From NCBI GenBank assembly GCA_947260005.1, contig CAMYOL010000026.1, forward strand, positions 1 through 64,000: a DNA stretch of 64,000 nucleotides, written 5' to 3'. The position numbers and the translations under genes are program-made. The notes under the pieces are model-generated. The model saw only the letters and a list, made by a program, of their open reading frames with translations, was not told where the DNA came from and did no database searches. Shown here piece by piece: positions 11,947 through 42,687 of this stretch. This DNA is from an uncultured Ectothiorhodospiraceae bacterium (GTDB lineage: Bacteria > Pseudomonadota > Gammaproteobacteria > UBA6429 > Thiohalophilaceae). Within the stretch, counting starts at the first letter, position 1. Each line of letters begins with the position of its first letter.

Positions 11947-12111
11947 TTAATAAGATCCATGATATCGCATGACCAATATTTTATTATACGTATTTCTGAC
12001 GAAAACGCTTTGCTTTCGTGGGTTGGAGAGTGTTAAAAGTTGACCAATTTAGCATGGTGGTCATGTTATTTATTGTATAGTGGTCTTAATCGAATAGTAG
12101 GAATTCAGAAT

Positions 12112-13599: not shown

Positions 13600-13605
13600 A
13601 AAAAA

Positions 13606-13748: not shown

Positions 13749-13759
13749 TAGTTAGTTCT

Positions 13760-15004
13760 CTATGTAAAGGAACGTAAAATCATGGTGCGCATTTCATTGG
13801 CACCTTTATCCATATACATACGTTTTACTTCACCGATACCTTCACATAGCCATGACACCTGTTCCGTATTTGGAATAATGAAGCTAGAGGTAATAGTTGA
13901 TTGCATCTTCAGACAGTTAGTAAATGTTCCTGCAGGTACGGTAATCGATGGTTCGATCGACAGGATGGTATTTTTTTGAATGGTGCCTGCCAAAGGATTA
14001 CCCACTCCTGCCTCAGCAAAACCAAAAGTCTTACCGACTTCCATCGTGTTATTCAGTAAAACTCCAGGGGTCTCATAAACAACAGTCTGACTAGGGACGA
14101 TGGTATCGTGATAGCTGGTCACTGAAAAACTGTCTGCCGTTAACACGTATGCGTGATCATAAGAGGTACAGTCTCCAAGCAGACCTGTCAGAGTTTCGGT
14201 GACGGTTATGTCCGAGCTGGCAGCGTTATCAACGCGAGTGATCGTTTGAGCGATCGTGTCACAAGCCCCATTCGCAAATAGCCGAAAATCTTTGGTCGTG
14301 GCATTCGGGATGTATAAATTAAAATCGATTGCCGGAGTTGGTTCGGGTGGTGGTAAGGTCGTGCCTCCCCCCCCCGTGCCTGAACCACTTTCCAATGCAG
14401 TGATACGTGCAGTATTACTGGTAATGGTATCGGTATTGGTTTGAACTTGCGTGCCTTGTACGTTGACATCCGATTGCATGGTGCTGACCTGAGTTGTTAA
14501 TGAATCAACACTGCCCTGCAGAGTTTGTGTGGTCGTGGTGACACCCGTTACGGCCGTAGTATTGGCCTGGATCTGTGTGTCTTGATTAGCATCATTTGCA
14601 GCATTGGCCTGAATTTGTGTGGCCTGTGTTGCATTGAGTGCGGTGTTTGCTTGTGCTTCAGCCGAGACACTATTGATGTTCCCAGTATTGGCCTGGATTT
14701 GTGCTGCGTTACCACTGATATTTCCGGTATTAGTTTGTACCTGAGTGGTTAAATTCGTAATCGCAGTAGTATTGCTTTGCACCTGTGCGTCATTGCTCGG
14801 GGTGGTACCCGTGCCACCACCGGTCGGTAAATTTTGAACCTGGGTGGTTAAAGCTTCAATATTGGCTGTGTTGGTATCGATTTGAGTTTTTATCGAATAA
14901 AATTTACTAAATACTTTTGAATTATAGTCTTCCGTCGCGTCATCCGCGAAGACTATGGGTGATGCCAGTCCCAAAGTAATTATTGCGGTTATCATAGTTT
15001 TCAT
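13760..15004 (-). CDS. secreted coiled-coil protein with IxxNTxx heptads
   Basis: 414 residues. Signal peptide MKTMITAIITLGLASPIVFA then a mature start at DDA. Residues about 38-205 carry eight heptad-spaced motifs of the form [I/V]xxNTxx (IDTNTAN, VQSNTTA, VQTNTGN, IQANTGN and variants), the Asn-at-d layers known from trimeric autotransporter stalks and phage fibres. A Gly/Pro-rich hinge (GTGGGGTTLPPPEPTP) then leads to a C-terminal globular domain with four cysteines. No YadA-type membrane anchor is present, so it is not a complete trimeric autotransporter. A GGAGG lies upstream of the start. Inferred: a homotrimeric secreted or periplasmic rod with a head. The head family was not recognised. 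Confidence 0.65.
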   Translation of the reverse strand: MKTMITAIITLGLASPIVFADDATEDYNSKVFSKFYSIKTQIDTNTANIEALTTQVQNLPTGGGTGTTPSNDAQVQSNTTAITNLTTQVQTNTGNISGNAAQIQANTGNINSVSAEAQANTALNATQATQIQANAANDANQDTQIQANTTAVTGVTTTTQTLQGSVDSLTTQVSTMQSDVNVQGTQVQTNTDTITSNTARITALESGSGTGGGGTTLPPPEPTPAIDFNLYIPNATTKDFRLFANGACDTIAQTITRVDNAASSDITVTETLTGLLGDCTSYDHAYVLTADSFSVTSYHDTIVPSQTVVYETPGVLLNNTMEVGKTFGFAEAGVGNPLAGTIQKNTILSIEPSITVPAGTFTNCLKMQSTITSSFIIPNTEQVSWLCEGIGEVKRMYMDKGANEMRTMILRSFT

Positions 15005-15177
15005 AGGGGGTGTCCTCCGTCTTCTGTTCCTTAAGTTTAAAGGGCTTTAGAATTTAATGCGTCGGAGAACGGTTCCCAAAGTGAGAACTGGTTCAGGTTT
15101 TTTTGGCCGGTGCGGTCAATTGTTATTCAATTTAACCTTTTTTAACAATCCCATACGATTATTAATGCTTGGAGAAG

Positions 15178-18093
15178 TTAAGTTGCAATGATCACGCGTA
15201 CGGCATCAAGCTGGGCAATGGTTGAGTCTAAACGTGACTGAATATCTGTTTTTAGTTGCACAAAGTAGTCAATTTCATCATCCCGAACGTTGGGATTAAC
15301 GGCTTTAAGCGCAGCAAGACGTTGAATCTCAAGCCCTAGCACCTCTGTGACATGTTCTTTGGCTTCAAGCAGGATGGCGGGAGTGGATTTTTCAGCGAAT
15401 TTATCACTAGCGGCAATCATTTTTCGTAAGGTGCTGCCGTGTGCGCGGATTACCTGAATCGCGGTTTCGAGATTAACCCGTTCTTGCGCCTGATTGATGG
15501 CACTATGGGATAATATGTCGTGATATAGCTTACCGGTTTGGTCGAGTACAATTCGAATATTGTTGGCAGGTAAGTACCGGCTTGTATTCATGGTGGTGCC
15601 TGAATTTGATTCCATTAAATACAGGCATTCGATCAACAATGTGCCAGCTGGAATAGAGCGATTTTTAATGGTCACCAGCGTGGTATTGCCCAATTCATTC
15701 GATAAGATGTTATCGATGGCCGTTGTCGTTAATGGATGTTCCCAACTGATAAAGTGCATGTCTTCATTCGCCAGGGCCATCTCTCTGTCATAGGTAATGG
15801 TCATGCCATCTTCAGTCAGACCAGGCAAACTAATGTGCGCATGGTCACTTGGTGCGATGATATAACTATTCTGGCTGTGTGCATCGATGTCGATACCAAA
15901 ATGATCAAACACCGTGTCCAGGAAGTGATTGAGTTCCAATTCATTAGATTGTTTATTCGCAATGTCAACCAGCCGATGGGCTTGCTCTTCTTTAAATGAA
16001 CTCAGTTCCAGCAAATGATCGCGACCTTGTTGTAAGGATTCCGTTAATTGTTGGTAAAGTGATTGTGTGGTGTCGATTAAACCCGGCAGGTCCTCCAGAC
16101 CTTCATCAATTTGATGTAAGGCCTCGATTAAGTTTTTCTCAAGTTGAGTAAATACACTCTGACCGGCAGTACAGGTATGTTCAAAGGCGTTGAGCCCTTC
16201 GTGATACCAGTACTTCATAATCATTTGTGCACTATTATCAAGGTAGGGCACATGTATCTGTATCGTTTCTTTTTGACCAATACGATCCAAACGACCGATA
16301 CGTTGTTCGAGTAAGTCTGGATTAAAGGGCAGGTCGAATAAAACCAAATGGTGAGCAAACTGGAAATTTCGCCCTTCGCTGCCGATCTCGGAACAAATTA
16401 ATACCTGTGAGCCTTCTTCTTCGTTGGCAAAAAAAGCAGCAGCACGATCACGTTCAATAATACTTAAGCCTTCATGAAAAACGGCAGCATGGATACCGGA
16501 TTTATTTTGTAAAGTCTGGGCAATATCCAATGCCGTATCCGCACTGGCGGTAATCACCAATACTTTCTGTGGTTTTAGTTCTCTTAACTTATCGGTTAGC
16601 CAGGTAATGCGTGGATCGAGCTCGACCCAGCTATCTTGAGATTCCTGTTTAACAGATTCATATAATAGTTCAGGACTCAGAAGCAACTGTCCCTCAGAAA
16701 TGGCGGCTTCTTGAAACAGTGCCAAACACTCGCCATATTCTTTAGGCAAGTGTAATGAATAGGAATTTAATTTACGTTCGGGGAAACCTTTAACGGCTGA
16801 GCGTGTGTTTCGGAATAAAACCCGTCCAGTGCCATGACGATCCAACAAGTGCTGTACCAGTTGTGCCTGGGCCTTTTGTCGGGTTTTATCATTCACCTCG
16901 GAATCTATGATGTTTTCGAGTAAATCATGTTTATCATCATTTAATAGGGTGGCGAGCAGCGTTTCTCGATTATGTTCACTTAACGGGACATCACTTAATA
17001 AGTTATCAATGGCCTCGGCAACGGGTTCATAATGTTTTTCTTCTTCAATGAATTTTTCGAAGTCGGGAAAACGATCGGGGTCGAGTAAGCGTAAACGTGC
17101 GAAGTGGCCGTTTTTCCCAAGTTGCTCCGGTGTCGCGGTTAACAATAAAACCCCTTTGGTATTTTGTGCTAATTGTTCAACACACTGGTATTCGTGACTG
17201 ACATGTTCGGGTGACCACTCCAGGTGATGTGCCTCATCGACGATCAGCATATCCCATTCACCCTCAACGGCATGCTGAAAGTATTTGGAATGTTCCGTTA
17301 AGAAATCGAGTGAACAGATAACCAGTTGCTCGGTTTGGAATGGGTTGATGCTGTCGTCGTCTTCCTGAATAGCCGAGCAGCGTTGTTCATCAAAAAGACT
17401 AAAGAACAGGTTGAAACGACGTAACATTTCCACTAACCACTGGTGAATCAAGGTTTCGGGTACGACGATCAATATGCGCTGTGCACGTTCGGTCAGCAAT
17501 TGCTGATGTAAGATTAAGCCAGCCTCAATGGTTTTTCCCAGCCCGACTTCATCCGCAAGTAAAACCCGGGGAGCATAACGTTGTGCAACTTCATTAGCGA
17601 TGAACAACTGGTGGGGGAGTAAGCTCGTACGGGCCCCGATCAATCCATACAATTTTGATTGTGATAGGCGGTTCTGGTACTGACGTGTTTGTTGACGCAA
17701 AACAAACCATTTGGGTTTGTCCAGTTGTCCATTAAGCAGGCGGTCGCTCGGACGGCTTAATTGCATGAAGTTATCCAGCTGGCCTTCTTCAATACGTAAT
17801 GACTGGCCTTGTGGATTCTGTCCTATATATAGGAGTAGGCCCTCATGCTCTTCCACGTGTTCAATGGTCATCGATTCGCCGTCATGAGATCGAATCGTAT
17901 CGCCCTCAGAAAAGCGCAAACGAGTCAGCGGGGCGGTTAATTTGGCATAGGTACGTGTTTCGCCAGTTGCCATGAACAGAATCTGCACACTACGTTGGTC
18001 CACACTGAGGACGGTACCCAGGCCCATTTGCAACTCGGTATTACTGATCCAGCGTTGGCCGGGGATATATTCGTGCGTGTTCAAAGTAACCAT
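15178..18093 (-). CDS. rapA: RNA polymerase-associated ATPase RapA
   Basis: 971 residues, matching the usual size (about 968). A Swi2/Snf2 translocase that recycles RNA polymerase. N-terminal Tudor-like region (residues 1-120), then helicase lobe 1 with Walker A LADEVGLGKTIEAGLIL and DEAH box (IVDEAHHLEW), lobe 2 with SEIGSEGRNFQFAHHLVLFD and QRIGRLDRIGQ, then the long RapA-specific C-terminal region. Start at 18093 (ATGGTTACTTTG). Transcribed as a single gene; the secreted coiled-coil gene downstream has its own upstream gap. Confidence 0.95.
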   Translation of the reverse strand: MVTLNTHEYIPGQRWISNTELQMGLGTVLSVDQRSVQILFMATGETRTYAKLTAPLTRLRFSEGDTIRSHDGESMTIEHVEEHEGLLLYIGQNPQGQSLRIEEGQLDNFMQLSRPSDRLLNGQLDKPKWFVLRQQTRQYQNRLSQSKLYGLIGARTSLLPHQLFIANEVAQRYAPRVLLADEVGLGKTIEAGLILHQQLLTERAQRILIVVPETLIHQWLVEMLRRFNLFFSLFDEQRCSAIQEDDDSINPFQTEQLVICSLDFLTEHSKYFQHAVEGEWDMLIVDEAHHLEWSPEHVSHEYQCVEQLAQNTKGVLLLTATPEQLGKNGHFARLRLLDPDRFPDFEKFIEEEKHYEPVAEAIDNLLSDVPLSEHNRETLLATLLNDDKHDLLENIIDSEVNDKTRQKAQAQLVQHLLDRHGTGRVLFRNTRSAVKGFPERKLNSYSLHLPKEYGECLALFQEAAISEGQLLLSPELLYESVKQESQDSWVELDPRITWLTDKLRELKPQKVLVITASADTALDIAQTLQNKSGIHAAVFHEGLSIIERDRAAAFFANEEEGSQVLICSEIGSEGRNFQFAHHLVLFDLPFNPDLLEQRIGRLDRIGQKETIQIHVPYLDNSAQMIMKYWYHEGLNAFEHTCTAGQSVFTQLEKNLIEALHQIDEGLEDLPGLIDTTQSLYQQLTESLQQGRDHLLELSSFKEEQAHRLVDIANKQSNELELNHFLDTVFDHFGIDIDAHSQNSYIIAPSDHAHISLPGLTEDGMTITYDREMALANEDMHFISWEHPLTTTAIDNILSNELGNTTLVTIKNRSIPAGTLLIECLYLMESNSGTTMNTSRYLPANNIRIVLDQTGKLYHDILSHSAINQAQERVNLETAIQVIRAHGSTLRKMIAASDKFAEKSTPAILLEAKEHVTEVLGLEIQRLAALKAVNPNVRDDEIDYFVQLKTDIQSRLDSTIAQLDAVRVIIAT

Positions 18094-28296: not shown

Positions 28297-30891
28297 ATGT
28301 CTACGTGTAAAAAATGTGATGATGCAACTGATCAAATAACTGATCCTGTATGCGGTATGAAAGTCTCTTCAGACTCAAAGTTATACTATCAATATGAAGA
28401 TCAAACCTTTCACTTTTGTTCAGATCATTGTTTGCATAAATTTGAAGATAATCCGGAAACTTATTTAAATTCATCAGACTCGGTATCGTTAACTGACCCG
28501 GTCTGTGGTATGAGTGTTACTGAAGATTCAGAATTTAATTACGATCACAAAAACATAACGTATCGATTTTGTTCAGAACACTGCTTAGATAAATTCAAAC
28601 AAAAACCGGAAGCCTGTTTAGAAAAATTAAAATCCCCGGCTGACATATCAGCGATGGATAAAAATGTAATGTATACCTGCCCAATGGATCCTGAGATTGA
28701 GCAATTGGGTCCTGGCACCTGTCCGAAATGTGGTATGGCGTTGGAGCCGATGGGCGTCCCGGTGTTGGCTACTAAAACAGAATATACCTGTCCTATGCAT
28801 CCTGAAGTCGTGCAGGATCATCCGGGGACGTGTCCAAAATGTGGTATGGCATTAGAGCCGATGACGGTCACGGTGGAAGAAAAGAATGAAGAATTAGATG
28901 ATATGAATCGTCGTTTTTGGATCAGTTCCATTTTTGCCATACCAGTCTTTATTTTGGCCATGATAGCCGACATGGTTCCACAATGGTTACCCGAAGCCCT
29001 TTCGATGCGTTCCGTTCAATGGATTGAGTTTGTGTTAGCTACACCGGTGGTACTTTGGGGGGGGGTGGCCCTTCTTTATCCGAGGCTGGCAATCTGTCAA
29101 AACATGGAATTTGAACATGTTTACCTTAATTGGTTTAGGTGTCTCGGTGGCGTGGGTCTACAGTGTGGTGGCATTATTACTACCTCATGTATTCCCTCCT
29201 GTTATGCAACATGACGGCGGAACGGTAGCCGTTTATTTCGAGGCGGCTGCGGTTATCACGGTGTTAGTTTTGCTGGGGCAGGTACTTGAATTACGTGCTC
29301 GATCACGTACCAATGCAGCGATTCAAATGTTGCTTGGACTGGCACCGAATACCGCGCGAATCGTTCGTGACGATGGAAAAGAGGAAGACATTCCGCTTGA
29401 GAATGTGCATCCGAATGATGTGTTACGAGTGCGTCCCGGAGATAAAATTCCGGTCGATGGGATCGTTATCGAAGGCGATAGCCATGTTGACGAATCGATG
29501 GTCACCGGCGAACCGATACCGGTCAGTAAAACAACCCATGACAAATTAATTGGTGCCACCGTTAATGGTACCGGTAGCTTATTGATGCGTGCGGAAAAAG
29601 TCGGTGCGGATACCCTATTGTCACAGATTGTGGGGATGGTCGCCGAAGCACAACGCTCGCGCGCACCAATACAAAAACTTGCGGACGTCGTTGCAGGATA
29701 CTTTGTCCCTGCGGTGGTTGGTATTTCGATTTTAACCTTTATAACCTGGTGGATTATCGGTCCTGAACCTCGTTTAGCCTATGCAATAGTCAATGCCGTG
29801 GCCGTTTTAATTATTGCATGCCCATGTGCGTTGGGATTAGCAACGCCAATCTCAATTATGGTTGGGACTGGCCGCGGCGCAATGGCGGGAGTGTTAATAA
29901 AAAATGCAGAAGCCTTGGAAGTCATGGAAAAGATCGATACCCTGGTTATCGACAAAACCGGGACCTTGACCGAAGGTAAACCGGAATTAATGTCTTTAAC
30001 AGCATTCGATGATTTTGATGAAAATAGTAATTTGCAACTTGCGGCGAGTCTGGAACAGGCCAGTGAGCATCCACTCGCCGAGGCGATTATTCGCGGTGCA
30101 CAAAACAAACAAATTGATTTATTAGCTGTGACTGAGTTTCAGTCGATTACCGGAAAGGGCGTTACCGGCCAGGTCAAGCAAAACATCAGGTTGCACTCGG
30201 AAATCTAAAGTTAATGCAGGATCAAGGAATCAATAATAATGAAGCCGTCATCCAGGCAGATGAATTACGTGCAGATGGTCAGACGGTGATGTACTTATCG
30301 ATTGATCAACAGCTAGCAGGATTGATTGGCGTCGCAGATCCAATTAAAGACTCTACTCCGGAAGCCATTCAAGCCCTGCATGACGAAGGATTGAAAATCG
30401 TTATGCTGACCGGTGATAATCTTAAAACGGCCGAGGCGGTTGCCAGTAAATTAAAACTGGATCGAGTCGAGGCCGAAGTGATGCCCGAGCAAAAAAGTGA
30501 TGTGATTAAACAACTACAGGATCAAGGTAACATCGTTGCGATGGCAGGAGATGGAATTAATGATGCACCTGCTCTGGCGCAGGCTCATGTTGGAATCGCG
30601 ATGGGAACCGGGACCGATGTCGCCATGGAAAGTGCCAGTGTGACCCTGGTTAAGGGAGATTTACGAGGCATTGTGCGTGCAAGAAGATTAAGCCAGGCCA
30701 CCATGCGGAATATTCGTCAAAATTTATTTTTTGCGTTTATCTACAATTCAGCGGGTGTCCCTATCGCTGCTGGTGTCCTGTACCCAGTTATGGGGATGTT
30801 ATTATCACCGATGATTGCCGCGGCAGCGATGAGCTTTAGTTCGGTCTCGGTGATAACGAATGCGCTTAGACTAAGAAACGTGAAGCTTTAA
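28297..30891 (+). pseudogene. frameshifted copper/silver-translocating P-type ATPase (CopA/SilP type)
   Basis: Three consecutive frames together give one full P1B-ATPase. N-terminus: two YHS domains (DPVCGMKV, DPVCGMSV) and two heavy-metal-binding CPM..TCPKCGMALEP modules. Core: membrane helices, TGE actuator ([11 protein letters not shown]), [11 protein letters not shown] metal motif, [11 protein letters not shown] phosphorylation site, [10 protein letters not shown] hinge. Lesion 1 is one extra G in a nine-G run at 29057-29065 (eight would restore WGGWPFF). Lesion 2 is a one-base loss near 30178-30185, before [11 protein letters not shown]. The second restores the original frame. As read, the protein is broken; G-tract slippage or sequencing error could rescue the first lesion. 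No TolC/Cus partners nearby. Confidence 0.85.
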
Positions 30892-32839: not shown

Positions 32840-33424
32840 ATGAACGTTTCATTTGATGTTTTGCTGGTCAGTGAAGAGCCGAGTAAAACAGATACATTAC
32901 AGGCTTTACTGAACGATTCTGGATATCGGGTGACATCACATATCACCACAGCAGATGATGTGATCGAAGAAGTGAATCGCTCCCAGCCAGATATCGTTGT
33001 CGTTAAAACAGAGGAAACGAATAACTATTTTATGAACCAGCTCTATAACCTGAACCAGGAAAATCCCAAACCGATCGTGATTTTTACGGACAGGAGTGAA
33101 AGTGGTCTGATTGATGGTGCAATCAAAGCGGGTATCAGTGCTTATGTCGTAGATGGATTGTCTTCCGAGCGGGTCAAACCGGTGTTAGAGGTCGCACGGG
33201 CACGATTCGAGCAAATGCAGTCACTGCAAAAGGAGTTAAAAAAGACAAAATCGCAGCTTGAAGAAAGAAAAACCATTGAGCGCGCGAAAGGCTTGATTAT
33301 GAAAAGTCGAAATTTATCTGAGGATGAGGCTTACAAGGCATTAAGAAAATTGGCCATGAATAAGAATCAACGATTAATAGAGGTCGCTACTGATGTGATA
33401 TCAGTATCAGAGATATTAATTTAA
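32840..33424 (+). CDS. nasT: NasT-type ANTAR antitermination regulator
   Basis: 194 residues. N-terminal pseudo-receiver domain (about 1-120: FDVLLVSEEPSKTDTLQALL, IVVVKTEE), a connecting helix, and a C-terminal ANTAR RNA-binding domain (about 140-190: ERAKGLIMKSRNLSEDEAYKALRK). NasT binds two-hairpin leader RNAs to block termination when nitrate is present. Two such leaders lie downstream, at 33458 and 39228. The usual nitrate-sensing partner NasS is not next to it; the nearest NasS-like fold is the Tat-signal NrtA homologue. Expression probably depends on sigma-54. Confidence 0.85.
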   Translation: MNVSFDVLLVSEEPSKTDTLQALLNDSGYRVTSHITTADDVIEEVNRSQPDIVVVKTEETNNYFMNQLYNLNQENPKPIVIFTDRSESGLIDGAIKAGISAYVVDGLSSERVKPVLEVARARFEQMQSLQKELKKTKSQLEERKTIERAKGLIMKSRNLSEDEAYKALRKLAMNKNQRLIEVATDVISVSEILI

Positions 33425-33457: not shown

Positions 33458-33547
33458 TGGGACCAAAGCAGGTCTCAAAACACAGACAAAGACGTCAATC
33501 TGGTTGAATTCACTTCGAATTCGACTGAGGTTGACGTCTTTTTTTTT
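33458..33547 (+). ncRNA. ANTAR-responsive leader RNA with terminator, upstream of the NirB-like/cytochrome operon
   Basis: First hairpin: stem TGGGACC (33458-33464) and GGTCTCA (33471-33477) enclosing hexaloop AAAGCA. Second: GAC (33485-33487), hexaloop AAAGAC, GTC (33494-33496). Both loops have A at position 1 and G at position 4, the ANTAR-recognition rule. The second overlaps the 5' arm of a strong terminator: AAAGACGTCAA (33488-33498) with TTGACGTCTTT (33531-33541), inner stem GTTGAATTC/GAATTCGAC, then a T run to 33547. So NasT binding should stabilise the hairpin and prevent the terminator. No separate promoter was found; the RNA probably continues from nasT. Confidence 0.85.
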
Positions 33548-33558
33548 GGAGTAAAAAA

Positions 33559-35550
33559 GTGAACACAGCAGTTCATTTAGTCAATGAAAGTATTAGACAG
33601 ACGTATTTAAACGACCCAGTTGTCATTATTGGAACAGGTCCGGTAGGTATTAAAACGCTGTTTACTTTGTTGGAAAAAGATCCACAGACACAAGTTGTGA
33701 TTTATGGTGATGAACCCTGGGAACCTTATAACCGGGTCAAACTGTCCTCATTATTGGCGGGTGAGACAGGTTGGTCTGATTTAATTGAATCACAAAAGGT
33801 ACCCCAGATTGAAAACCTTGTGCAACATCAGAACTGTCGAGTGGTTGAAATTGATCGGGAAAGAAATACGGTTATTGATTCCTTTGGACGTGAACAACGT
33901 TATCGAAAGTTAATTCTTGCATTAGGTTCCAACCCACATATCCCGAGTGTCGATGGTATCGAACTCGAAAATATTTATACGTTCCGCAATATGACCGATG
34001 CGCAACATCTCATGGCGCGCCAGGTAAAAAGTCGTCGCGTGATAGTGGTTGGTGGGGGTGTATTGGGTTTAGAGGCGGCTAAGGCAATGTCGCGCAATAA
34101 AACCGAAGTGACCGTCATTGATCACGCCCAATATTTAATGCCTGCCCAATTAGACGAGGAAGCTGCTGAGTTACTTCGTGAGCATATCTTAGTACTTGGG
34201 ATAAAGGTTTATCTTGGGGTCGGTATTAAGAAAATACTTGGCGATACAAAAGTAACAGGTGTCGAACTTCGGAATGGAGAAATCAAACAGTGTGACACGC
34301 TCATTTTATCAACGGGTATTAAATCCAATGTTGAACTTGCACGTAAGGCGAAGATACATGTAGGTCGTGGGGTGCGTGTATCTGACACCATGCAAACAAA
34401 TGACCCGGATATCTATGCGGTCGGAGAGTGTGCAGAACATCGCGAAATAGTCTATGGCCTTGTTGCGCCGGGTTTTGAACAAGCTAAAGTCGCCGTCGCG
34501 GATATCCACAAACAGAAAACAGCGTACCGCGGCTCCATCATGGCGACCCAATTAAAAGTGGTTGGCTTACCCGTGTTTAGTATGGGACGAACAGGAGAGG
34601 GTGAAAGCAAAAGTATTTTTAATCAACATGTATTCGCTAAACCGGGTAGTCAAACTTACCGGAAAATTATTATTTTCCGTAACCGACTGGTTGGTGCTAT
34701 TTCAGTCGGTAAATGGGATTCACTTCACCGGATCCAGGAAAGCATCACTAAACAACGCTATATTTTCCCCTGGCAGTTAAAACGCTTTGTCACCACAGGT
34801 GATCTTTGGCCAAAAAGTGAAGGACAAGTTGTCGCCCAATGGCCTGCAAATGCCATTGTCTGTCAATGTATGAATGTGACCCGAGGCCAATGCAGCAAGG
34901 CGATAACGACAGGCTGCGAAACAGTAGAAGCCGTCATGCAAAAAACGTCAGCATCGACGGTTTGTGGTGGTTGCCGTCCTCTTTTAGCTGAGTTAATTGG
35001 TGGGGCAGTACAGGCAGAGAAAATAAAATCATTTAGATCCATATTTCTTTATTCACTACTGGTTGGTCTGGCTGCTTTAATTGCATTCTTATCCCCCGGT
35101 GTTACTTATAACGAATCATCTATACAGGCACTGCAATGGGATGTTGTCTGGCGGGATGGTGTGATTAAACAAGTAACAGGATTCAGCATATTAGGCTTAA
35201 CCCTGCTGGGCTTGCTCGTAGCGCTTAGAAAACGTTGGAAGCGATTTTCTTTGTTCGAATTTTCATTTTGGCGCTATGTGCATATTTTTATCGGCGTGTT
35301 TATCGTACTTACCTTACTGATGCATACAGGATTCAGGCTTGGCAATAATATCAATGCCTGGTTAATGAGCCTGTTTACGGGATTGATATTGGTCGGTGGG
35401 GTTTACGGTGTTTTTATGTCTCTGCAGTACAAATTAGATGGAGTATTAGCAAATAAAATTAAAGGGTATATGAATTGGATACATTTACTGCTGTTTTGGC
35501 CGGTACCGGTTTTGTTGACATTTCATATTATCAAGACTTATTACTTTTAG
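33559..35550 (+). CDS. NirB-like FAD oxidoreductase fused to [2Fe-2S] BFD and di-heme cytochrome b membrane domain
   Basis: 663 residues from a GTG start with GGAG upstream. Residues 1-410 form the NirB/rubredoxin-reductase type FAD-NAD(P)H module (GTGPVG at 25-30, GGGVLG at 165-170, YAVGECAEHR). Then a BFD-type iron-sulfur domain with C435, C437, C469 and C472. Instead of siroheme/4Fe-4S domains, the C-terminus (about 494-663) is five membrane helices with histidine pairs H575/H589 and H642/H656, each 14 apart, as in two-heme b-type or ferric-reductase domains. Inferred: moves electrons from cytosolic NAD(P)H across the membrane to the periplasmic multiheme cytochrome encoded next. Architecture uncommon to my knowledge. 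Confidence 0.8.
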   Translation: MNTAVHLVNESIRQTYLNDPVVIIGTGPVGIKTLFTLLEKDPQTQVVIYGDEPWEPYNRVKLSSLLAGETGWSDLIESQKVPQIENLVQHQNCRVVEIDRERNTVIDSFGREQRYRKLILALGSNPHIPSVDGIELENIYTFRNMTDAQHLMARQVKSRRVIVVGGGVLGLEAAKAMSRNKTEVTVIDHAQYLMPAQLDEEAAELLREHILVLGIKVYLGVGIKKILGDTKVTGVELRNGEIKQCDTLILSTGIKSNVELARKAKIHVGRGVRVSDTMQTNDPDIYAVGECAEHREIVYGLVAPGFEQAKVAVADIHKQKTAYRGSIMATQLKVVGLPVFSMGRTGEGESKSIFNQHVFAKPGSQTYRKIIIFRNRLVGAISVGKWDSLHRIQESITKQRYIFPWQLKRFVTTGDLWPKSEGQVVAQWPANAIVCQCMNVTRGQCSKAITTGCETVEAVMQKTSASTVCGGCRPLLAELIGGAVQAEKIKSFRSIFLYSLLVGLAALIAFLSPGVTYNESSIQALQWDVVWRDGVIKQVTGFSILGLTLLGLLVALRKRWKRFSLFEFSFWRYVHIFIGVFIVLTLLMHTGFRLGNNINAWLMSLFTGLILVGGVYGVFMSLQYKLDGVLANKIKGYMNWIHLLLFWPVPVLLTFHIIKTYYF

Positions 35551-35560
35551 GTTGTGACAA

Positions 35561-36946
35561 ATGAGTAATAAGAATCGAATCTATTGGGTTTACTGGATTG
35601 TATTAACGGTTGGAATGACAGGTTATTTAATTATGCAATTAACAGGTGAAGACAAAACAGTGTATTTACCAGGTAAAACAAGTCATGGTCACTATCAAAT
35701 TGAGATGGCCTGTTCTGCATGTCATACCGATCCCCTCGGCGGAGGTGAAGTGTTGCAGGATGCATGTATGGGTTGTCATGGAGAGGAATTGGAAAGGGCC
35801 GATGATTCTCACCCTAAGTCTAAATTCACCAATCCACGTAATGCCGATCGGGTTGCAAAATTAGATGCAAGGAAATGTATAACCTGTCATACCGAGCATC
35901 GAGAGGAAATCACGTTAGAAATGGGTGTTTCATTACCCAATGATTTCTGTTTTAAATGTCATGAGGATGTTGCTGAGAATCGTCCCAGTCACGTTGGCAT
36001 GGAATTTAATACCTGTGCCTCAGCTGGCTGCCATAATTTTCATGATAATCGAGGATTGTATGAGGATTTTCTCGCAAAACATCTTGATGAACCCGCCTAT
36101 CTTAAAAAAGCGAGTGTGAAACCACTCTCTGCAGGTAAGGCATATGAGTTAATTAATTCATATCCGGTTGCAGCTTATCCTATTAAATCATTAACGATTA
36201 ATGATGCAGATACACCAGCTGATGTACGTAATGATCCCAAGGTTATGCAGGATTGGCTTGCCAGCTCACATAGCAAAGCAGGAGTGAACTGTACCGCTTG
36301 TCATATGCAATCAAGCGCAGAGACTAAAGAGAAAATATGGAAAGAAAAGCCCGGCTATCAGGTGTGTGAAAGTTGCCATGAATCACAGGTCAAAGGGTTT
36401 TTAGCTAGCCGTCACGGTATGCGTCTGGCGCAAGACCTCTCCGCGATGACACCGGGACAGGCGCGACTCGATATGAAGAAAAATGCGCATGATAGAGAAT
36501 TATCATGCACATCCTGTCATGGCTCTCATCAATTCGATAAAAAACATGCGGCGGTGGATGGATGCCTGGCATGTCACGATGATAAACACAGCAATCAATA
36601 TAAACAGTCAAAACACTTTACCTTATGGCACAAAGAGGTTACGGGGCAAGCCGAGGCCAATACCGGTGTTTCCTGTGCAACCTGTCACCTGCCACGAAAA
36701 CAAAGCAGACACGAAAACGGAACTTTTGTTTCGTCAGAACATAATCAAAATGACAATTTACGACCAAATGAAAAGATGCTGAGAAGTGTCTGTATGCAAT
36801 GCCATGGTCTTGAGTTTTCGATTGACTCATTGGCAGATCGTAAATTGATCGAAAAGAATTTTTCTTCAAAACCAGACGTTCATATAAAAAGTCTTGATCT
36901 TGTTCGTCAACGCAAGGATTTGAAGAAGGATATTGAAGGTATGTAA
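35561..36946 (+). CDS. membrane-anchored undecaheme cytochrome c (HAO/nitrite-reductase-like)
   Basis: 461 residues. An N-terminal signal anchor (about 8-27) places it in the periplasm. Ten CxxCH hemes (first Cys 51, 69, 106, 130, 244, 269, 316, 335, 372, 411) plus one CX4CH (C152-C157-H158). Spaced regions such as CHDDKHSNQYKQSKHFTLWH resemble the Y..S.H element of the hydroxylamine-oxidoreductase/octaheme superfamily. No CxxCK catalytic heme of NrfA is seen. Ten bases after the FAD-cytochrome b gene, so co-expressed; likely its electron acceptor. The substrate (nitrite, NO, hydroxylamine or other) cannot be read from sequence. Confidence 0.8.
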   Translation: MSNKNRIYWVYWIVLTVGMTGYLIMQLTGEDKTVYLPGKTSHGHYQIEMACSACHTDPLGGGEVLQDACMGCHGEELERADDSHPKSKFTNPRNADRVAKLDARKCITCHTEHREEITLEMGVSLPNDFCFKCHEDVAENRPSHVGMEFNTCASAGCHNFHDNRGLYEDFLAKHLDEPAYLKKASVKPLSAGKAYELINSYPVAAYPIKSLTINDADTPADVRNDPKVMQDWLASSHSKAGVNCTACHMQSSAETKEKIWKEKPGYQVCESCHESQVKGFLASRHGMRLAQDLSAMTPGQARLDMKKNAHDRELSCTSCHGSHQFDKKHAAVDGCLACHDDKHSNQYKQSKHFTLWHKEVTGQAEANTGVSCATCHLPRKQSRHENGTFVSSEHNQNDNLRPNEKMLRSVCMQCHGLEFSIDSLADRKLIEKNFSSKPDVHIKSLDLVRQRKDLKKDIEGM

Positions 36947-36991: not shown

Positions 36992-37567
36992 ATGAAACAT
37001 AAAATATTATTATTAATAAGTAGCATGATTGGGAGTGCAGTACTGTTGTCAGCATGTGGAGGAAGTGAAACAAAGAGTGGAGGTGTATCGCCTCAAGTTA
37101 TGGCTGATTCATTATTTAGTGTAATGGAAGCAGACAGGACAGTGTATACAAAATTAATCATCGGCCGTCTGGCGAAAGAAGAAAAGGTCATAAAAGCATC
37201 TGAACATTGGAAAGATGAAAAAGCATTAGTCTTACCTGCGCAGATGTTTCGTTACGGCGCAGAACGAGTCGCTGAAAAAGGTGCGCCTTTTAGCTATTCG
37301 CTTCTATCTTTATGGCCGGTCAATAAGCAAAACAAGCCTAAAACCGAGATTGAGAAAAAAGGTTTGAACTTCATTGCTGAAAATCCGGGTAAGAACTTTT
37401 ATGCCGAAGAAGAATTAGGTGGTACCAGGTATTTTACTGCCGTTTATCCTGATGTTGGCGTCGCATCAGCTTGTGTTTCCTGCCATAACAAGCATAAAGA
37501 CAGCCCACGGACTGATTTTAAAATCGGTGAGGTTATGGGTGGCGTCGTAATTCGTATTCCACTTTAA
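36992..37567 (+). CDS. heme lipoprotein with DUF3365 (Tll0287-like) domain
   Basis: 191 residues. Signal peptide with lipobox LLSAC (lipidated Cys about 22). The mature domain ends with a single heme motif CVSCHNKHKDSPRTDFKIGE, the typical position in DUF3365/Tll0287-like heme sensors or electron carriers; a PAS-like fold is known for this family. Good SD (CAGGAGAG). Third gene of the operon; it may pass electrons or sense redox state. Confidence 0.78.
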   Translation: MKHKILLLISSMIGSAVLLSACGGSETKSGGVSPQVMADSLFSVMEADRTVYTKLIIGRLAKEEKVIKASEHWKDEKALVLPAQMFRYGAERVAEKGAPFSYSLLSLWPVNKQNKPKTEIEKKGLNFIAENPGKNFYAEEELGGTRYFTAVYPDVGVASACVSCHNKHKDSPRTDFKIGEVMGGVVIRIPL

Positions 37568-37593: not shown

Positions 37594-38010
37594 ATGACAC
37601 CTGAACAAATAGAGTTAGTGCAAACAAGCTGGGATAAAGTTAAACCTATTTCAGATAAGGCTGCGGAGTTGTTCTATGGGAAACTGTTTGAACTAAACCC
37701 GGCATATCGGGATCTTTTTCCCGATGACATGGTCGAGCAAGGTCGAAAACTAATGGCCATGATCAATACTGCAGTAAATAGTCTTAAAAATCTTGAAGCG
37801 GTCGTTCCGGCGGTAGAAGAGATGGGAAAACGCCATGTTGGTTATGGTGTAACCGAAAAAGACTATGATGTCGTTGGCGAGGCCTTGTTGTGGACCTTGG
37901 GTGCAGGATTAGGTGATGACTTTACTGATGATGTAAAGCAAGCCTGGACAGAAACCTATGTGATACTTGCGACAACGATGAAAAATGCAGCAGCCTCAGT
38001 AGCGGCTTGA
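37594..38010 (+). CDS. single-domain bacterial hemoglobin
   Basis: 138 residues, the size of Vitreoscilla-type globins without a reductase domain. CD-corner PAYRDLFPDD, distal region EQGRKLMAMI with Gln in the E7 zone, proximal His in GKRHVGYGV, followed by the H-helix WTETYVILATTMKNA. Such globins bind O2 and NO and aid nitrosative-stress tolerance. Position in a NasT-controlled operon argues for scavenging NO or acting on nitrogen-oxide by-products. GGAGAG ribosome-binding site. Confidence 0.9.
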   Translation: MTPEQIELVQTSWDKVKPISDKAAELFYGKLFELNPAYRDLFPDDMVEQGRKLMAMINTAVNSLKNLEAVVPAVEEMGKRHVGYGVTEKDYDVVGEALLWTLGAGLGDDFTDDVKQAWTETYVILATTMKNAAASVAA

Positions 38011-38066: not shown

Positions 38067-39023
38067 ATGAATTACATCGATTCAATTGAACGTTATCATG
38101 AATACAGTAGTGCAATACATGAGTTATTAGGTTCTATATTAACCGGGGTTGCAAATATTGATGTTTTTCATGACGAAGTAAAATTAAAAAATGCAATCTG
38201 TCATATAACTGGTCATTATCCTTTTGTTGACTTAATTTATACACTGGATAAAAAAGGCATTCAGACCAGTAAAAATATTGCATGTCCAGCGAAAAGCAAT
38301 AAATTACAAAATGACGCACTGGGAGCCGATCGAAGCCAACGACCTTATTTTCTGTTAGCAAAAGATCATGAAGGAATTATTGTTACGGACCCTTATCTCT
38401 CGTCCGCTTCACGCAACTTGTGTATATCCGCAATAATACGTTTATGTGATGCAGAGAGTAATGTTATCGGTTATTTGGTTCTGGATATAGACCTGAATGA
38501 GACGATGGAATTTTTAATGGGAGATTCGATCCGTAAGGCTTTTGTTCCTGCTTTTCGTGTTGTATATAGTATTATTGCATTAGGCTTGTTTTCAGTAGTA
38601 GCCGTTTTATTGTACTCATCATTTAGTGAAGTTGCGTCTTTGTTCACCTCAAATTATGAAAAGCACGATTTTTATCTTAAACCCTTTGGTGTGATTATAT
38701 ATTTAACTTTGGGTTTGGCCATCTTTGATCTTGGTAAAACGATCCTGGAAGAAGAGGTGCTAATGCACAAAGATATCTTTCGGCATAGCTCAACGAGAAG
38801 AACGATTACGCGTTTTATCGCGGCAATCTTAATTGCAGTATCCATCGAGGCCTTGTTAATGATGTTTAAAAGTGCGATGGGCGATGCTGACCATATGCAC
38901 CAGGCAGTATTAATGATGTCAACTTCGGTTGGTCTTTTGGTTGGTTTGGGTATTTATGTCTATCTAGGGGCGCGTGCTGAGACATTATTACTAAAGCTGA
39001 ATAGTCAGAAAGGCAAAAAGTAA
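38067..39023 (+). CDS. membrane protein with PDC/Cache-like N-terminal sensor
   Basis: 318 residues. Residues 1-150 look like a PDC sensor (LIYTLDKKGIQTSKNI, RSQRPYFLLAKDHEGIIVTDPY, GYLVLDIDL, the RP..Y signature of ligand-binding Cache folds). Four membrane helices follow (about 165-190, 205-222, 245-270, 280-302) and no output kinase or GGDEF domain. The sensor part lacks a preceding signal peptide, so it may be cytosolic. Last gene of the operon; a role as nitrogen-oxide or amino-acid sensor is speculative. Confidence 0.7.
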   Translation: MNYIDSIERYHEYSSAIHELLGSILTGVANIDVFHDEVKLKNAICHITGHYPFVDLIYTLDKKGIQTSKNIACPAKSNKLQNDALGADRSQRPYFLLAKDHEGIIVTDPYLSSASRNLCISAIIRLCDAESNVIGYLVLDIDLNETMEFLMGDSIRKAFVPAFRVVYSIIALGLFSVVAVLLYSSFSEVASLFTSNYEKHDFYLKPFGVIIYLTLGLAIFDLGKTILEEEVLMHKDIFRHSSTRRTITRFIAAILIAVSIEALLMMFKSAMGDADHMHQAVLMMSTSVGLLVGLGIYVYLGARAETLLLKLNSQKGKK

Positions 39024-39227: not shown

Positions 39228-39319
39228 CCTCTCCCAATGTCGGGACAGGTTAAATTTAGAAAGGCAATGGCGCCTACTTACACACAACTCCTCCGTGTGT
39301 TCGTAGGCGCTTTTTTTTT
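39228..39319 (+). ncRNA. ANTAR-responsive leader RNA with terminator, upstream of nrtA
   Basis: Hairpin 1: CCT-C-TCCC (39228-39235) and GGGA-C-AGG (39242-39249) with one mismatch, hexaloop AATGTC. Hairpin 2: AGGC (39262-39265), hexaloop AATGGC, GCCT (39272-39275). Both loops have A1 and G4. The terminator uses GCGCCTAC (39270-39277) with GTAGGCGC (39303-39310), an inner ACACAC/GTGTGT stem, and a nine-T run to 39319; its 5' arm overlaps hairpin 2. Same logic as the leader at 33458, so NasT should control both operons. Confidence 0.88.
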
Positions 39320-39348: not shown

Positions 39349-40746
39349 ATGAAAAAAGAGAAAACAACGAGACGTAAATTTATTACGAATAGTATTGCGT
39401 CACTGAGCATCGCTGCCAGTGTTTTATTGAGTGGGGTAAGTCAGTCTGTATTCGCTGAGATCGGTGAACCAGAAAAAGAAGAACTGAAATTTGGTTTTAT
39501 CAAGTTAACCGATATGGCACCGCTTGCGATTGCCTATGAAAAGGGTTATTTCGAAGATGAAGGATTGTATGTCACATTAGAGGCGCAAGCTAACTGGAAA
39601 GTGCTGTTAGATCGGGTCATTGATGGCGAACTGGATGGCGCACATATGCTTGCGGGACAACCCTTAGGGGCGACGATTGGGTTTGGTACCAAGTCTCACG
39701 TGATTACTGCATTTAGTATGGATTTAAACGGTAACGGTATTACCGTATCAAATGACATATGGAAAAGAATGAAAAAGCATGTACCGCATAAAGATGGTAA
39801 ACCGGTACACCCAATTAAAGCTGATTATTTAAAACCGGTAGTAGATGAATTCAAAAAAGAAGGTAAACCCTTTAAGATGGGGATGGTATTTCCTGTATCG
39901 ACTCATAACTATGAGCTGCGTTACTGGTTAGCCGCTGGTGGTATTCATCCTGGATACTACGCACCCCACAAAGGTGATACCAGTGGAAATCTAAAAGCGG
40001 ATGCCTTGTTATCTGTAACGCCTCCACCTCAAATGCCTTCCACAATGGAAGCCGGAACTATTCATGGTTACTGCGTAGGTGAGCCCTGGAATCAACAGGC
40101 TGTATTCAAAGGTATCGGCGTTCCAGTGATTACTGATTATGAAATTTGGAAAGATAATCCTGAAAAAGTATTTGGTGTCAGTAAAGCCTGGGCAGACAAA
40201 TATCCTAATACCCATATCCGTGTTGTGAAAGCAATGATTCGTGCTGCGCAATGGTTGGACGAAGGAAACAATAAGAACCGACCTGAAGCCGTGAAGATTT
40301 TGTCCAAAAGCCAATACGTTGGTGCGGACTATGATGTTATTGCCAACAGTATGACGGGTACGTTTGAATATGAAAAAGGTGACAAACGTGATGTGCCTGA
40401 TTTCAATGTATTCTTCCGTTATAACGCGACCTATCCTTATTACAGTGATGCAATCTGGTATCTAACTCAAATGCGTCGTTGGGGACAAATATCAGAACAA
40501 AAGAGTGATAGTTGGTATAAGGATGTCGCTAAGAAAGTTTATCGTCCAGACATCTATGCAAAAGCTGCGAAAGAGTTGATTAAAGAAGGCAAGGTTAACG
40601 CTAAAGATTTCCCGGAGTTTGCCAGCGAAACAGGATTTCGTAAACCACAAACTCATTTTATTGACAATATTACCTATGATGGTAGCAAACCGAATGACTA
40701 TCTGAAAAAGTTCAGTATTGGTCTAAAAGGAAAGGAGAAGATTTAA
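39349..40746 (+). CDS. nrtA: nitrate ABC transporter substrate-binding protein NrtA
   Basis: 465 residues. Tat-type signal with TRRKFI then a hydrophobic stretch to about VFA, so exported folded. NrtA/CmpA/SsuA-like fold: [21 protein letters not shown] at the start of the mature domain, [15 protein letters not shown], and [10 protein letters not shown] as the ligand pocket region. Supplies nitrate or nitrite to NrtB/NrtD. AAGGAA ribosome-binding site. It is also the only protein in the window with the fold of NasS, the cytosolic nitrate sensor that normally partners NasT; its Tat signal argues against that role. Confidence 0.88.
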
Positions 40747-40766
40747 AATCAGGTAGTCAAAGTTGT

Positions 40767-40798
40767 AACCCCGGTACCGAGTTGCCGGGGTTTTTTTT
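40767..40798 (+). terminator. hairpin after nrtA
   Basis: AACCCCGG (40767-40774) pairs with CCGGGGTT (40785-40792) followed by a T run. Such structures after binding-protein genes often attenuate or stabilise the transcript so that nrtA outnumbers nrtB/nrtD. Confidence 0.75.
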
Positions 40799-40813
40799 AG
40801 AGGACACACACAC

Positions 40814-41821
40814 ATGAACACACAAGTCGTTAACATTATTAATAATTTAAATATCAAGGGCCAAACGATTAAATTTTTCGATTTTTTCAAAGACCCTTCA
40901 AAAGTCTTTAAGACGATTGGCATACCCATCCTGTCGATTGCTATGTTTTTAGTTATCTGGAATGCGGTCGCGTCACAGATTAAAACGTCGTTAGGCCAGG
41001 TCCCAGGGCCTGCACATGTCTATCAGCAGATCATTACTTTGTATGGTGAACATGTCGAGGAACGAAATAAAGAGACCGCCTTTTATGAACGGCAGGAAAA
41101 ACGCAATGCAAAGAAACTTGAGAAAAACCCGGATGCGAAAGTTAAAATACGTCCCTATACCGGTAAAGAAACGTTCTTTGATCAGGTTATAACAAGCATT
41201 GTAACGGTGATTACCGGATTTTTACTGGCGAGCTTAATTGCAATCCCCATTGGTATTATTTGCGGACTGAGTACAACACTCTATTCAGCATTAAACCCGT
41301 TAATTCAAACTTTTAAACCGATCTCACCGCTGGCATGGCTTCCCATCGTCACGATGATTGTGAGTGCGGTCTATATAAGTGACGATCCAATGTTTGATAA
41401 ATCATTTTTAAATTCGGCGATAACCGTGATGTTATGTTGCATGTGGCCAACAATTATAAATACCACGGTTGGTGTCTCAACGATTGATAAAGATTTGATC
41501 AACGTTAGCAGAGTATTGCGTTTAGGTTGGATGACTAACGTAATTAAAATTGTTTTACCTTCATCGATTCCAATGATGTTTGCAGGTTTGCGCGTTTCCC
41601 TGGGTATCGGTTGGATGGTATTAATTGCAGCAGAAATGTTGGCACAAAATCCAGGCCTGGGTAAATTTGTCTGGGATGAGTTTCAAAATGGTAGCTCAAA
41701 TTCATTAGCTCGCATAATGGTCGCAGTCGTCGCCATCGGTCTTATCGGATTTTTATTAGATCGGGTTATGCTTTTACTGCAAAAGTCGGTTAGTTGGGAC
41801 AAATCAGCGATTATTCGTTAA
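40814..41821 (+). CDS. nrtB: nitrate ABC transporter permease NrtB
   Basis: 335 residues, six-helix BPD_transp_1 permease with a long cytosolic N-terminus. The EAA-type loop includes RVLRLGWMTNVIKIVLPSSIPMMFAGLRVS followed by the GIGWMVLIAAEML helix. The extended, charged insert at about 85-120 (RQEKRNAKKLEKNPDAK) is unusual. Downstream of the nrtA hairpin, with AGAGGA as ribosome-binding site. Confidence 0.88.
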   Translation: MNTQVVNIINNLNIKGQTIKFFDFFKDPSKVFKTIGIPILSIAMFLVIWNAVASQIKTSLGQVPGPAHVYQQIITLYGEHVEERNKETAFYERQEKRNAKKLEKNPDAKVKIRPYTGKETFFDQVITSIVTVITGFLLASLIAIPIGIICGLSTTLYSALNPLIQTFKPISPLAWLPIVTMIVSAVYISDDPMFDKSFLNSAITVMLCCMWPTIINTTVGVSTIDKDLINVSRVLRLGWMTNVIKIVLPSSIPMMFAGLRVSLGIGWMVLIAAEMLAQNPGLGKFVWDEFQNGSSNSLARIMVAVVAIGLIGFLLDRVMLLLQKSVSWDKSAIIR

Positions 41822-41838
41822 ATAGAGGAGAACAAGCT

Positions 41839-42687
41839 ATGAATCATTTAGAAATTTCACAAGTCGCGATGGAATTTGAAACACCGACGGGGCCCTTCGT
41901 TGCATTAGATAATGTCAATTTAACGATTGCTAAAGGTGAATTTGTTTCTTTAATCGGCCATTCGGGCTGCGGGAAATCGACGGTATTAAATATTGTTGCC
42001 GGTCTTTATCAGGCGACGACCGGGGGGGTTATTTTGGATGGTAAAGAAGTGAATGAACCCGGGCCGGATAGAGGCGTCGTTTTTCAGAATCATTCTCTAT
42101 TACCCTGGTTAACGGCCTATGAAAATGTTGAATTGGCTGTAAAACAGGTTTTTACCGGAAAAAAATCAAAGGCAGAGATGAAAGAATGGATTTTGCACAA
42201 TCTGGAACTCGTGCACATGTCTCATGCAATTGATAAACGGCCGAGTGAAATATCAGGTGGTATGAAACAAAGGGTTGGTATTGCCCGTGCACTTGCTATG
42301 GAACCGAAAGTGTTATTAATGGATGAACCATTTGGCGCCCTGGATGCCCTGACCCGGGCCCATATGCAGGATTCTTTGATTGAAATTCAGGCGCGCTTAA
42401 AAAATACCGTCATCATGATTACCCACGACGTGGATGAAGCGGTATTGTTATCCGATCGCATCGTGATGATGACCAACGGTCCATCGGCAACCGTTGGTGA
42501 AATACTACCGGTTGATCTGCCTCGACCTCGTGATCGGGTGCAATTAGCAGGTAATAAACAATATAACGAATACCGTGCAGAAGTCCTGAAATTCCTGTAT
42601 GAGCGTCAACGGAAAATAGAACCTGTACCGGCAATCAGTAGTGAAAAGAAAAAAGCTAAAAGTGATGATGAGGAGATAGCCGCTTAA
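41839..42687 (+). CDS. nrtD: nitrate ABC transporter ATPase NrtD
   Basis: 282 residues from the ATG at 41839 (AGAGGAG upstream); the open frame extends to 41794 inside nrtB, but that start is unlikely. Walker A GHSGCGKST, Q-loop FQNHSLLPW, signature SGGMKQRVGIARAL, Walker B LLMDEPFGALD, H-loop TITHDVDEA-type (IMITHDVDEAV). Single cassette without the NrtA-like extension of NrtC. Completes nrtA-nrtB-nrtD. Confidence 0.9.
   Translation: MNHLEISQVAMEFETPTGPFVALDNVNLTIAKGEFVSLIGHSGCGKSTVLNIVAGLYQATTGGVILDGKEVNEPGPDRGVVFQNHSLLPWLTAYENVELAVKQVFTGKKSKAEMKEWILHNLELVHMSHAIDKRPSEISGGMKQRVGIARALAMEPKVLLMDEPFGALDALTRAHMQDSLIEIQARLKNTVIMITHDVDEAVLLSDRIVMMTNGPSATVGEILPVDLPRPRDRVQLAGNKQYNEYRAEVLKFLYERQRKIEPVPAISSEKKKAKSDDEEIAA

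Follow-up and report, generated by a model that had tools for sequence, protein, structure and literature searches.

In NOX and ferric reductases (FRD), electrons pass from flavin to heme across the membrane, and two H-x12/14-H pairs are expected on the transmembrane helices TM3 and TM5 (available part of PMC5676040). In Bradyrhizobium, the accessible sections of PMC4724949 describe a narK-bjgb-flp-nasC cluster that brings together nitrate assimilation, a single-domain globin, an NAD(P)H flavoprotein and NO defence under the nitrate-responsive NasS-NasT. Targets of ANTAR proteins, as presented in the part of PMC3369931 at hand, carry two hairpins with six-base loops having A first and G fourth, the second of which overlaps a terminator. 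For the Tll0287 family, the portion of a 2026 preprint available to us (PMC12889525) treats a signal-fused domain as NO-sensor-like and a stand-alone one as redox-like, with Cys/His ligation. We analysed a stretch of 64,000 nucleotides (the window: positions 1 to 64,000 of contig CAMYOL010000026.1, assembly GCA_947260005.1, from an uncultured Ectothiorhodospiraceae bacterium) in which one open reading frame (ORF), here called RED, joins a NirB-like front end to a predicted di-heme cytochrome b tail. Our results indicated that RED is probably a membrane-bound NAD(P)H:multiheme-cytochrome-c oxidoreductase, forming a nitrate-inducible conduit from NADH to the periplasm that is linked to N-oxide handling. 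The RED gene and its parts are the following.

33559..35550, + strand: RED, predicted fusion of a NirB-like FAD/NAD module, a BFD [2Fe-2S] domain and a di-heme cytochrome b.
33619..34755, + strand: FAD/NAD(P)H module (Pyr_redox_2) plus Rubredoxin_C, residues 21-399 (Pfam).
34855..34998, + strand: BFD-type [2Fe-2S] domain, residues 433-480, with C435, C437, C469 and C472 (Pfam, alignment, structure match).
35032..35544, + strand: five-helix membrane tail, residues 492-662, with H575 and H589 in TM3 and H642 and H656 in TM5 (AlphaFold2, alignment).

The RED ORF starts with GTG and encodes 663 aa. Pfam recognised Pyr_redox_2 at residues 21-314 (E 5.7e-52), Rubredoxin_C at residues 329-399 (E 9.9e-15) and Fer2_BFD at residues 433-480 (E 9.9e-11), and the BFD part was superimposed on the Bfd structure 6e6r over 51 residues (VIA-align, rmsd 1.3, Z 9.8). 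When RED was compared with the NirB model TIGR02374, residues 21-491 aligned to model positions 1-476 of 794, with 381.9 bits against a cut-off of 578.35. Because the match ended at position 476, the siroheme half of NirB is absent from RED, which rules out a plain NirB. The first-pass annotation had proposed a NirB-like reductase lacking the siroheme part, with a FAD module and a BFD-type Cys set, and this description was borne out by the partial, sub-cut-off NirB match, the Pfam domains and the conservation of the four Cys given below. In an NAD site, an acidic residue closing the second beta strand leans to NADH; this position was E or D in 50 of 81 sequences.

The comparisons rest on 119 relatives recovered by scanning 84,980 species genomes with an alignment of the BFD domain and tail, the best 80 of which were kept as loci; together with the window protein they gave the 81 rows used for ligands. 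All 80 loci encoded the tail plus at least part of the FAD/NAD module (L028, L047 and L076 start part-way), and the presence of the identical fusion in 80 loci ruled out an annotation error or assembly artefact. The four Cys of the BFD domain and the four His of the tail (H575, H589, H642, H656) were each present in 81 of 81 rows; the two short patterns of the scan included C469, C472 and H589, so that independent evidence comes from the remaining five ligands. Five further copies came from 40 genomes searched as relatives, the genome of the window included. According to the record titles, the carriers belonged to the alpha-, beta- and gammaproteobacteria, Planctomycetes, Verrucomicrobia, Poribacteria, Acidobacteriota, Gemmatimonadetes and Myxococcales. 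Neither Pfam nor NCBIfam held a name for the fusion, plasmid records gave no match for the tail, and a PHROGs search gave none either.

The tail of RED contained exactly four His, and these form two H-x13-H pairs, H575/H589 and H642/H656. When the residues of the tail were shuffled 20,000 times, two or more such pairs arose only 21 times, and a filter for two hydrophobic H-x13-H motifs more than 20 aa apart passed 76 of the 80 RED-family proteins but only 3 of the 722 remaining ORFs of 200 aa or longer in these loci, so that pairing by chance could be ruled out. AlphaFold2 modelling of the BFD domain and tail from 72 sequences (pLDDT 91.6, pTM 0.84) predicted long helices at about residues 492-511, 534-554, 568-590, 598-625 and 628-662, the last one kinked. 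The five helices and two H-x13-H pairs claimed by the first-pass annotation were thus recovered, with the paired His sites that it had asked structure prediction to look for lying in TM3 and TM5. The loops between TM2 and TM3 and between TM4 and TM5 carried on average 4.5 and 3.3 K+R, versus 1.3 and 0.8 in the other two; this positive-inside pattern, with a cytosolic N-terminus, would place H575 and H642 on the cytosolic side. With this topology, H575 and H642 should hold the inner heme and H589 and H656 the outer heme, as in NOX.

Pfam gave no match on the tail of the window protein, and PF01794 was not found in RED. Weak matches (E up to 5) were obtained among the 72 tail members to DUF4405 (36), Ni_hydr_CYTB (21), Ferric_reduct (11) and DUF4079 (10), all of which presumably belong to one heme-b clan; besides BFD these were the only models matched by at least 10 of the 72, so the profile check proposed in that annotation turned up weak matches only and, among these models, no non-heme family. 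Superposition of the tail with VIA-align gave Z 9.1 with hydrogenase cytochrome b 6g94 (119 residues aligned, rmsd 3.9), Z 7.4 with both b561 4o6y (131, rmsd 3.5) and STEAP1 8ucd (126, rmsd 6.5), and Z 6.1 with both DUOX1 6wxu (126, rmsd 4.2) and NarI 1q16 (127, rmsd 5.1).

A profile of the tail was also run against a sample of 299 genomes of the phylum and gave 16 matches: the genome of the window, G158, a variant in G177 and 13 weaker ones. The G158 and G177 proteins retained both His pairs. In the G177 variant (L110), a FAD/NAD domain of the ferredoxin-reductase type (FAD_binding_6 and NAD_binding_1) lies between the BFD domain and the heme-b tail, an insertion found only there among the proteins scanned, and the next gene encodes 11 CXXCH motifs. 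Twelve of the 13 remote relatives were examined (the weakest, L123, was left out), and all twelve kept both H-x13-H pairs, the second pair lying outside the stretch matched by the profile. These proteins (L111-L122) are of about 280-320 aa with a long insert between TM4 and TM5. By eye, with Pfam run on samples only, a cNMP-binding/4Fe-4S ferredoxin protein adjoins 10 of the 12 and a multiheme cytochrome, FHA-like in some cases, likewise adjoins 10 of the 12; these loci are perhaps a sister electron-export module. A 44-row tree (33 RED, 11 NirB-type) did not recover RED as one clade against NirB and forced at least two changes, so we do not claim a single origin of the fusion. Two betaproteobacterial NirB-type rows fell, on a long branch, beside the RED rows L057 and L059; rows were taken as NirB-type without confirming the siroheme half in each, and the L036 row, with 451 aa, is too short for one.

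The genes downstream of RED indicated where its electrons may go.

35561..36946, + strand: 11-heme cytochrome c with an N-terminal helix, probably a membrane anchor, and 10 CXXCH plus 1 CX4CH motifs (motif count, alignment, model).
36992..37567, + strand: Tll0287/DUF3365 (sCache_heme) mono-heme protein, probably a lipoprotein (PF11845, E 3.3e-20; lipobox LLSAC).
37594..38010, + strand: single-domain globin (PF00042, E 1.2e-16; nearest solved chain 3wfw, E 4.1e-30).
38067..39023, + strand: dCache-like membrane protein in which no output domain was recognised (dCache_1, E 9.2e-10, under the Pfam cut-off).

In all 80 loci, the RED gene was followed directly on its own strand by a homologue of the 11-heme gene; 76 of these homologues had 10 CXXCH plus 1 CX4CH motifs, two had 9 plus 1, and two were cut by contig ends. 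Eleven further His were conserved at 97% or more in 73 sequences, which equals the number of hemes and suggests a wire. The predicted fold (pLDDT 83.5, with a weak stretch at about residues 81-160) aligned through residues 214-438, which hold hemes 6-11, with hydrazine dehydrogenase 6hif (Z 8.9, 194 residues, rmsd 4.0, 24% identity); this second half also aligned with HAOs, octaheme nitrite reductases (ONR) and NrfA, and all 30 structural matches listed were multiheme cytochromes. The best Foldseek match was 6t5e (E 1.2e-3, TM 0.31), and profile searches with the protein found mostly the same multiheme families, over short stretches. This gene order suggests, as far as sequence can tell, that electrons cross the membrane to the 11-heme cytochrome rather than stop in the membrane, an amendment to the first-pass annotation, which had them moving from cytosolic NAD(P)H into the membrane.

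The Tll0287 gene was present in 78 of the 80 loci; the two exceptions, L099 and L103, stop close to its expected place. A few loci, for example L058 and L050, had it upstream rather than downstream. The window protein scored 73.4 bits with PF11845 (cut-off 24.1), and CXXCH was found in all 79 aligned sequences. No Cys outside the CXXC was conserved at 85% among the 79, the only other Cys of the window protein being that of the lipobox, and Pfam found no output domain on this protein. A globin (47), a truncated globin (6) or a hemerythrin-like protein (15) was encoded in 68 of the 80 loci, a small c5-like cytochrome in 28, and a ferredoxin-reductase-type gene in 5, all of them among the 6 loci with a truncated globin. 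The place of the dCache-like gene in the unit is uncertain; relatives of its product were seen in L027/L028 (one contig) and, more weakly, in L042. In the planctomycetes L045, L054 and L055 a ResB-like cytochrome c maturation gene was located downstream of the module (Pfam on L045 only).

Upstream of RED, the window carries an ANTAR gene and a leader, and similar elements recur before its nitrate transport genes.

32840..33424, + strand: NasT-like response regulator with an ANTAR RNA-binding domain (PF03861, E 1.1e-20), immediately upstream of RED on the same strand.
33458..33477, + strand: leader hairpin P1, hexaloop AAAGCA with A first and G fourth (A1, G4), from the predicted fold.
33485..33496, + strand: leader hairpin P2, GAC-AAAGAC-GTC (A1, G4), overlapping the 5' base of the terminator (dual-hairpin scan).
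33487..33547, + strand: long terminator stem followed by T9 in the RED leader, from the predicted fold.
39232..39319, + strand: second ANTAR-type leader, before nrtA, with hexaloops AATGTC and AATGGC, a terminator and T9.
39349..42687, + strand: nrtABC-type nitrate ABC transporter genes (NMT1_2, E 6.5e-99; ntrB by TIGR01183, E 5.4e-47, sub-cut-off; ABC ATPase by eye).

The RED leader of 134 nt, in which the stem of P1 has 7 bp, folded with -43.6 kcal/mol (z -6.26), and none of 200 shuffles was as stable. By predicted structure, the window contains the features of an ANTAR operon: dual hairpins with A1/G4 loops, overlap with the terminator and an ANTAR gene nearby. In order to compare loci, a simple leader test was applied upstream of RED, with a six-base A1/G4 loop on a stem of at least 6 pairs (four of them G-C) followed by at least 6 T within 95 nt; L028, L047 and L062 were left out of the leader tests as having too little upstream DNA. 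Of the 17 regions from loci with an ANTAR gene (the window included), 8 were positive, and of the 61 from loci without one, none; the expectations from shuffles were 0.01 and 0.05, respectively. Since the thresholds of the test were set after the leaders or hairpins of all eight passing loci were known, this is a contrast and not a blind test, with the shuffles and the 61 ANTAR-free loci as controls. An earlier scan, which required a strict terminator, was positive for 4 of 16 loci with an ANTAR gene and for 2 of the 61 without, but not for the leader of the window itself. The dual-hairpin scan matched the window at 33458 and 39232 as well as L029, L030, L033, L042, L089 and L093; it also gave one A+T-rich match inside a gene at 57778, and found nothing before nirB in L020, nor in L031. 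Rfam returned one sub-threshold match, to SCARNA7 (19.4 bits, cut-off 65), which was taken as chance. In this genome, nitrate or nitrite thus appears to control the RED operon by way of a NasT-like ANTAR protein, which would block the leader terminator.

Nitrate transport or reduction genes were found in 23 of the 60 long loci (those of at least 16 kb), or in 24 when ANTAR genes were counted, and nitrate genes near the module recurred in alpha-, beta- and gammaproteobacteria and in Verrucomicrobia. We surveyed nitrogen-metabolism genes in seven genomes bearing the module, including that of the window (G000). NirK was over the cut-off in one of them and cytochrome d1 in five, exceeding 40 bits only in G039, which implied that the module does not track NO-forming nitrite reductases in these seven genomes. 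NrfA passed the cut-off in two, each time over roughly 50 of the 438 positions; of the six NrfA matches listed, four fell within the 11-heme gene. NapA was over the cut-off in three genomes, G000 included; frames of 727-902 aa whose NapA alignment was sub-cut-off, and which we took as NasA, were found in six (G034 had only a weak fragment), and heme-copper oxidases in all seven. Within this small set, nitrate assimilation accompanies the module more than denitrification does.

The genome of the window also encodes a NirB of 815 aa, identified by eye and by sequence match, beside NasA on another contig (C39, locus L020). There, at 11731-15735, NasA is followed by a fusion that by eye has a 4Fe-4S ferredoxin part and an NrfD/DmsC-like membrane part, which suggests a quinol-linked assimilatory nitrate reductase; a similar protein was seen in L091 after a NirA-type gene. 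Beside narK and nirB, at 5213-6922 of L020, lies what by eye is a PP2C phosphatase-Ser/Thr kinase fusion, with relatives in the module loci L070 and L033. A contig of 3.8 kb (C75, L021) carries a near-duplicate of the narK-nirB start of the C39 locus, either a second copy or strain variation. In the window itself, a P-type (probably copper) ATPase recognised by eye at 28297-30891 on the + strand appears split over three ORFs (28297-29214, 29111-30208 and 30214-30891), as in a frame-broken or mis-assembled gene.

According to the reading that we favour, whose electron path we infer step by step from gene and domain order, ligands and topology, cytosolic NADH would reduce the FAD of RED and electrons would then pass to the BFD [2Fe-2S] cluster, to the heme b of the cytosolic side (H575-H642), to that of the periplasmic side (H589-H656), to the membrane-anchored 11-heme cytochrome c and from there to the Tll0287 protein or other small periplasmic cytochromes. 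Outward electron flow is favoured by the membrane potential. With nitrate or nitrite, the ANTAR protein would keep the leader terminator from forming and so turn the operon on. The most likely role would be to bring cytosolic reducing power to the periplasm during nitrate assimilation, for the handling of reactive N-oxides (nitrite, NO, hydroxylamine), while the globin would provide the same protection from the cytosolic side. This role is proposed from the nitrate leader, the globins, truncated globins and hemerythrins of 68 of the 80 loci, the HAO/NrfA-like half of the 11-heme protein and the Bradyrhizobium precedent. If the conduit is real, a conserved fusion coupling NADH directly to an 11-heme wire would provide a quinone-independent route out of the cell, and nitrate-assimilating bacteria would gain a periplasmic arm of N-oxide handling.

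Several observations weigh against this reading. Regarding the membrane hemes, a Foldseek search with the tail returned only Bfd at probability 1.00 and weak bundles, none with E of 0.001 or below; the missing heme-b family proves nothing. Soluble bundles such as talin (Z 11.2) scored as high as the heme-b proteins or higher, which makes the VIA-align result consistent with a heme-b fold, not proof of it. Regarding nitrate, the leader motif was missing from 9 of the 17 loci with an ANTAR gene, L089 and L093 showed the dual-hairpin pattern with no ANTAR gene in the locus, and 36 of the 60 long loci, Microbulbifer included, had no recognised nitrate or ANTAR gene. Regarding N-oxides, 12 of the 80 loci had no globin or hemerythrin match, and the genome of the window had no NirK over the cut-off and only short, near-cut-off cytochrome d1 matches, so that its source of NO is not obvious. 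Each of the 11 hemes may also be assigned a conserved His, which argues against the 11-heme protein as an N-oxide reductase. Finally, in L036 the module runs on into heme-copper oxidase genes (COX2 and COX1 families, 13198-15196, after the reductase, 11-heme, Tll0287 and c5 genes on the same strand), which speaks against a role in nitrate alone.

This last arrangement, the 11 likely bis-His hemes and the occurrence of the module without nitrate genes nearby in Microbulbifer and others would be expected if the module were a general electron outlet or ferric reductase, through which electrons from NADH reach terminal oxidases or acceptors on the outer membrane or outside the cell (Fe(III), electrodes), with the nitrate link being regulatory and confined to some lineages. 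Such an outlet is possible, although we regard it as the less probable explanation given the globin or hemerythrin genes of 68 of the 80 loci and the recurrence of nitrate genes in alpha-, beta- and gammaproteobacteria and Verrucomicrobia.

A bolder proposal, which we consider doubtful, is that the module is itself a nitrate-switched, NADH-driven periplasmic N-oxide reductase. The NirB front half would power, via the two membrane hemes, an HAO/NrfA-like 11-heme core reducing NO, nitrite or hydroxylamine, bypassing quinones. The quinol pool is the electron source usually assumed for periplasmic multiheme reductases.

It is quite improbable that the module acts as a sensor, in which the Tll0287 protein (a c-heme Cache domain) and the multiheme protein would use RED to inform the cytosol of NO or of the redox state of the periplasm. 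The accessible text of PMC12889525 describes a signal-fused member of this Cache family that binds NO tightly, and the window has a dCache-like protein downstream, but the same text gives stand-alone members a redox role, Pfam found no output domain on the window Tll0287 protein, and a full NADH-FAD-FeS-heme chain exceeds the needs of a sensor. Equally hard to credit is a flavoprotein half that mainly reduces the cytosolic globin (a met-globin reductase for NO dioxygenation, like Flp with Bjgb) on a heme tail serving as an anchor only, since globins or truncated globins occur in 53 of the 80 loci but four heme ligands kept in 81 of 81 rows are unexpected for an anchor, the separate ferredoxin-reductase-type gene in 5 of the 6 truncated-globin loci could serve the globin, and the 11-heme gene is retained in 27 loci without a globin match.

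Word searches of an open-access library for combinations of its parts showed us no description of the module; the parts of PMC3591440 at hand mention no BFD or multiheme fusion, and those of PMC9230427, PMC5371394 and PMC13186404 do not treat this module. Several described systems resemble parts of it. The narK-bjgb-flp-nasC cluster of Bradyrhizobium likewise combines a globin and an NAD(P)H flavoprotein with nitrate assimilation and NasT, whereas its Flp, as far as the available sections of PMC4724949 go, has neither membrane hemes nor a multiheme partner. The 11-heme protein shares residues 214-438 with HAO, ONR and NrfA by alignment and differs from them in an extra five-heme N-terminal part and an N-terminal helix, with no open heme evident from its sequence. 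Unlike the stand-alone protein of P. putida covered in the consulted part of PMC12889525, the Tll0287 protein of the window belongs to a group with no conserved candidate for an axial Cys outside the CXXC, so its ligand would differ. The Uet undecaheme pathway of Tenderia, from electroactive gammaproteobacteria, also has an eleven-heme cytochrome, a likeness by description and not by UetJ sequence; in the portion of PMC10734462 at hand, Uet is described as a porin complex.

As for RED itself, NirB (TIGR02374) has the same order of FAD/NAD module, Rubredoxin_C and BFD [2Fe-2S], and carries its siroheme/4Fe-4S half where RED has the predicted five-helix heme-b domain. NOX/FRD and, from partial sources, MsrQ-Fre share with RED the two His pairs on TM3 and TM5, located in RED by alignment and AlphaFold2. 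In contrast, the front of RED is a Pyr_redox_2 module with a [2Fe-2S] relay and not an FNR-type FAD/NADPH domain, and its tail has five helices, whereas NOX/FRD have six. Judged on its sequence, RED would be a NOX-like flavocytochrome b built on a NirB front end: it would work in the manner of the NOX/MsrQ type without being a member by its front end, and it would be related to NirB without being a NirB.

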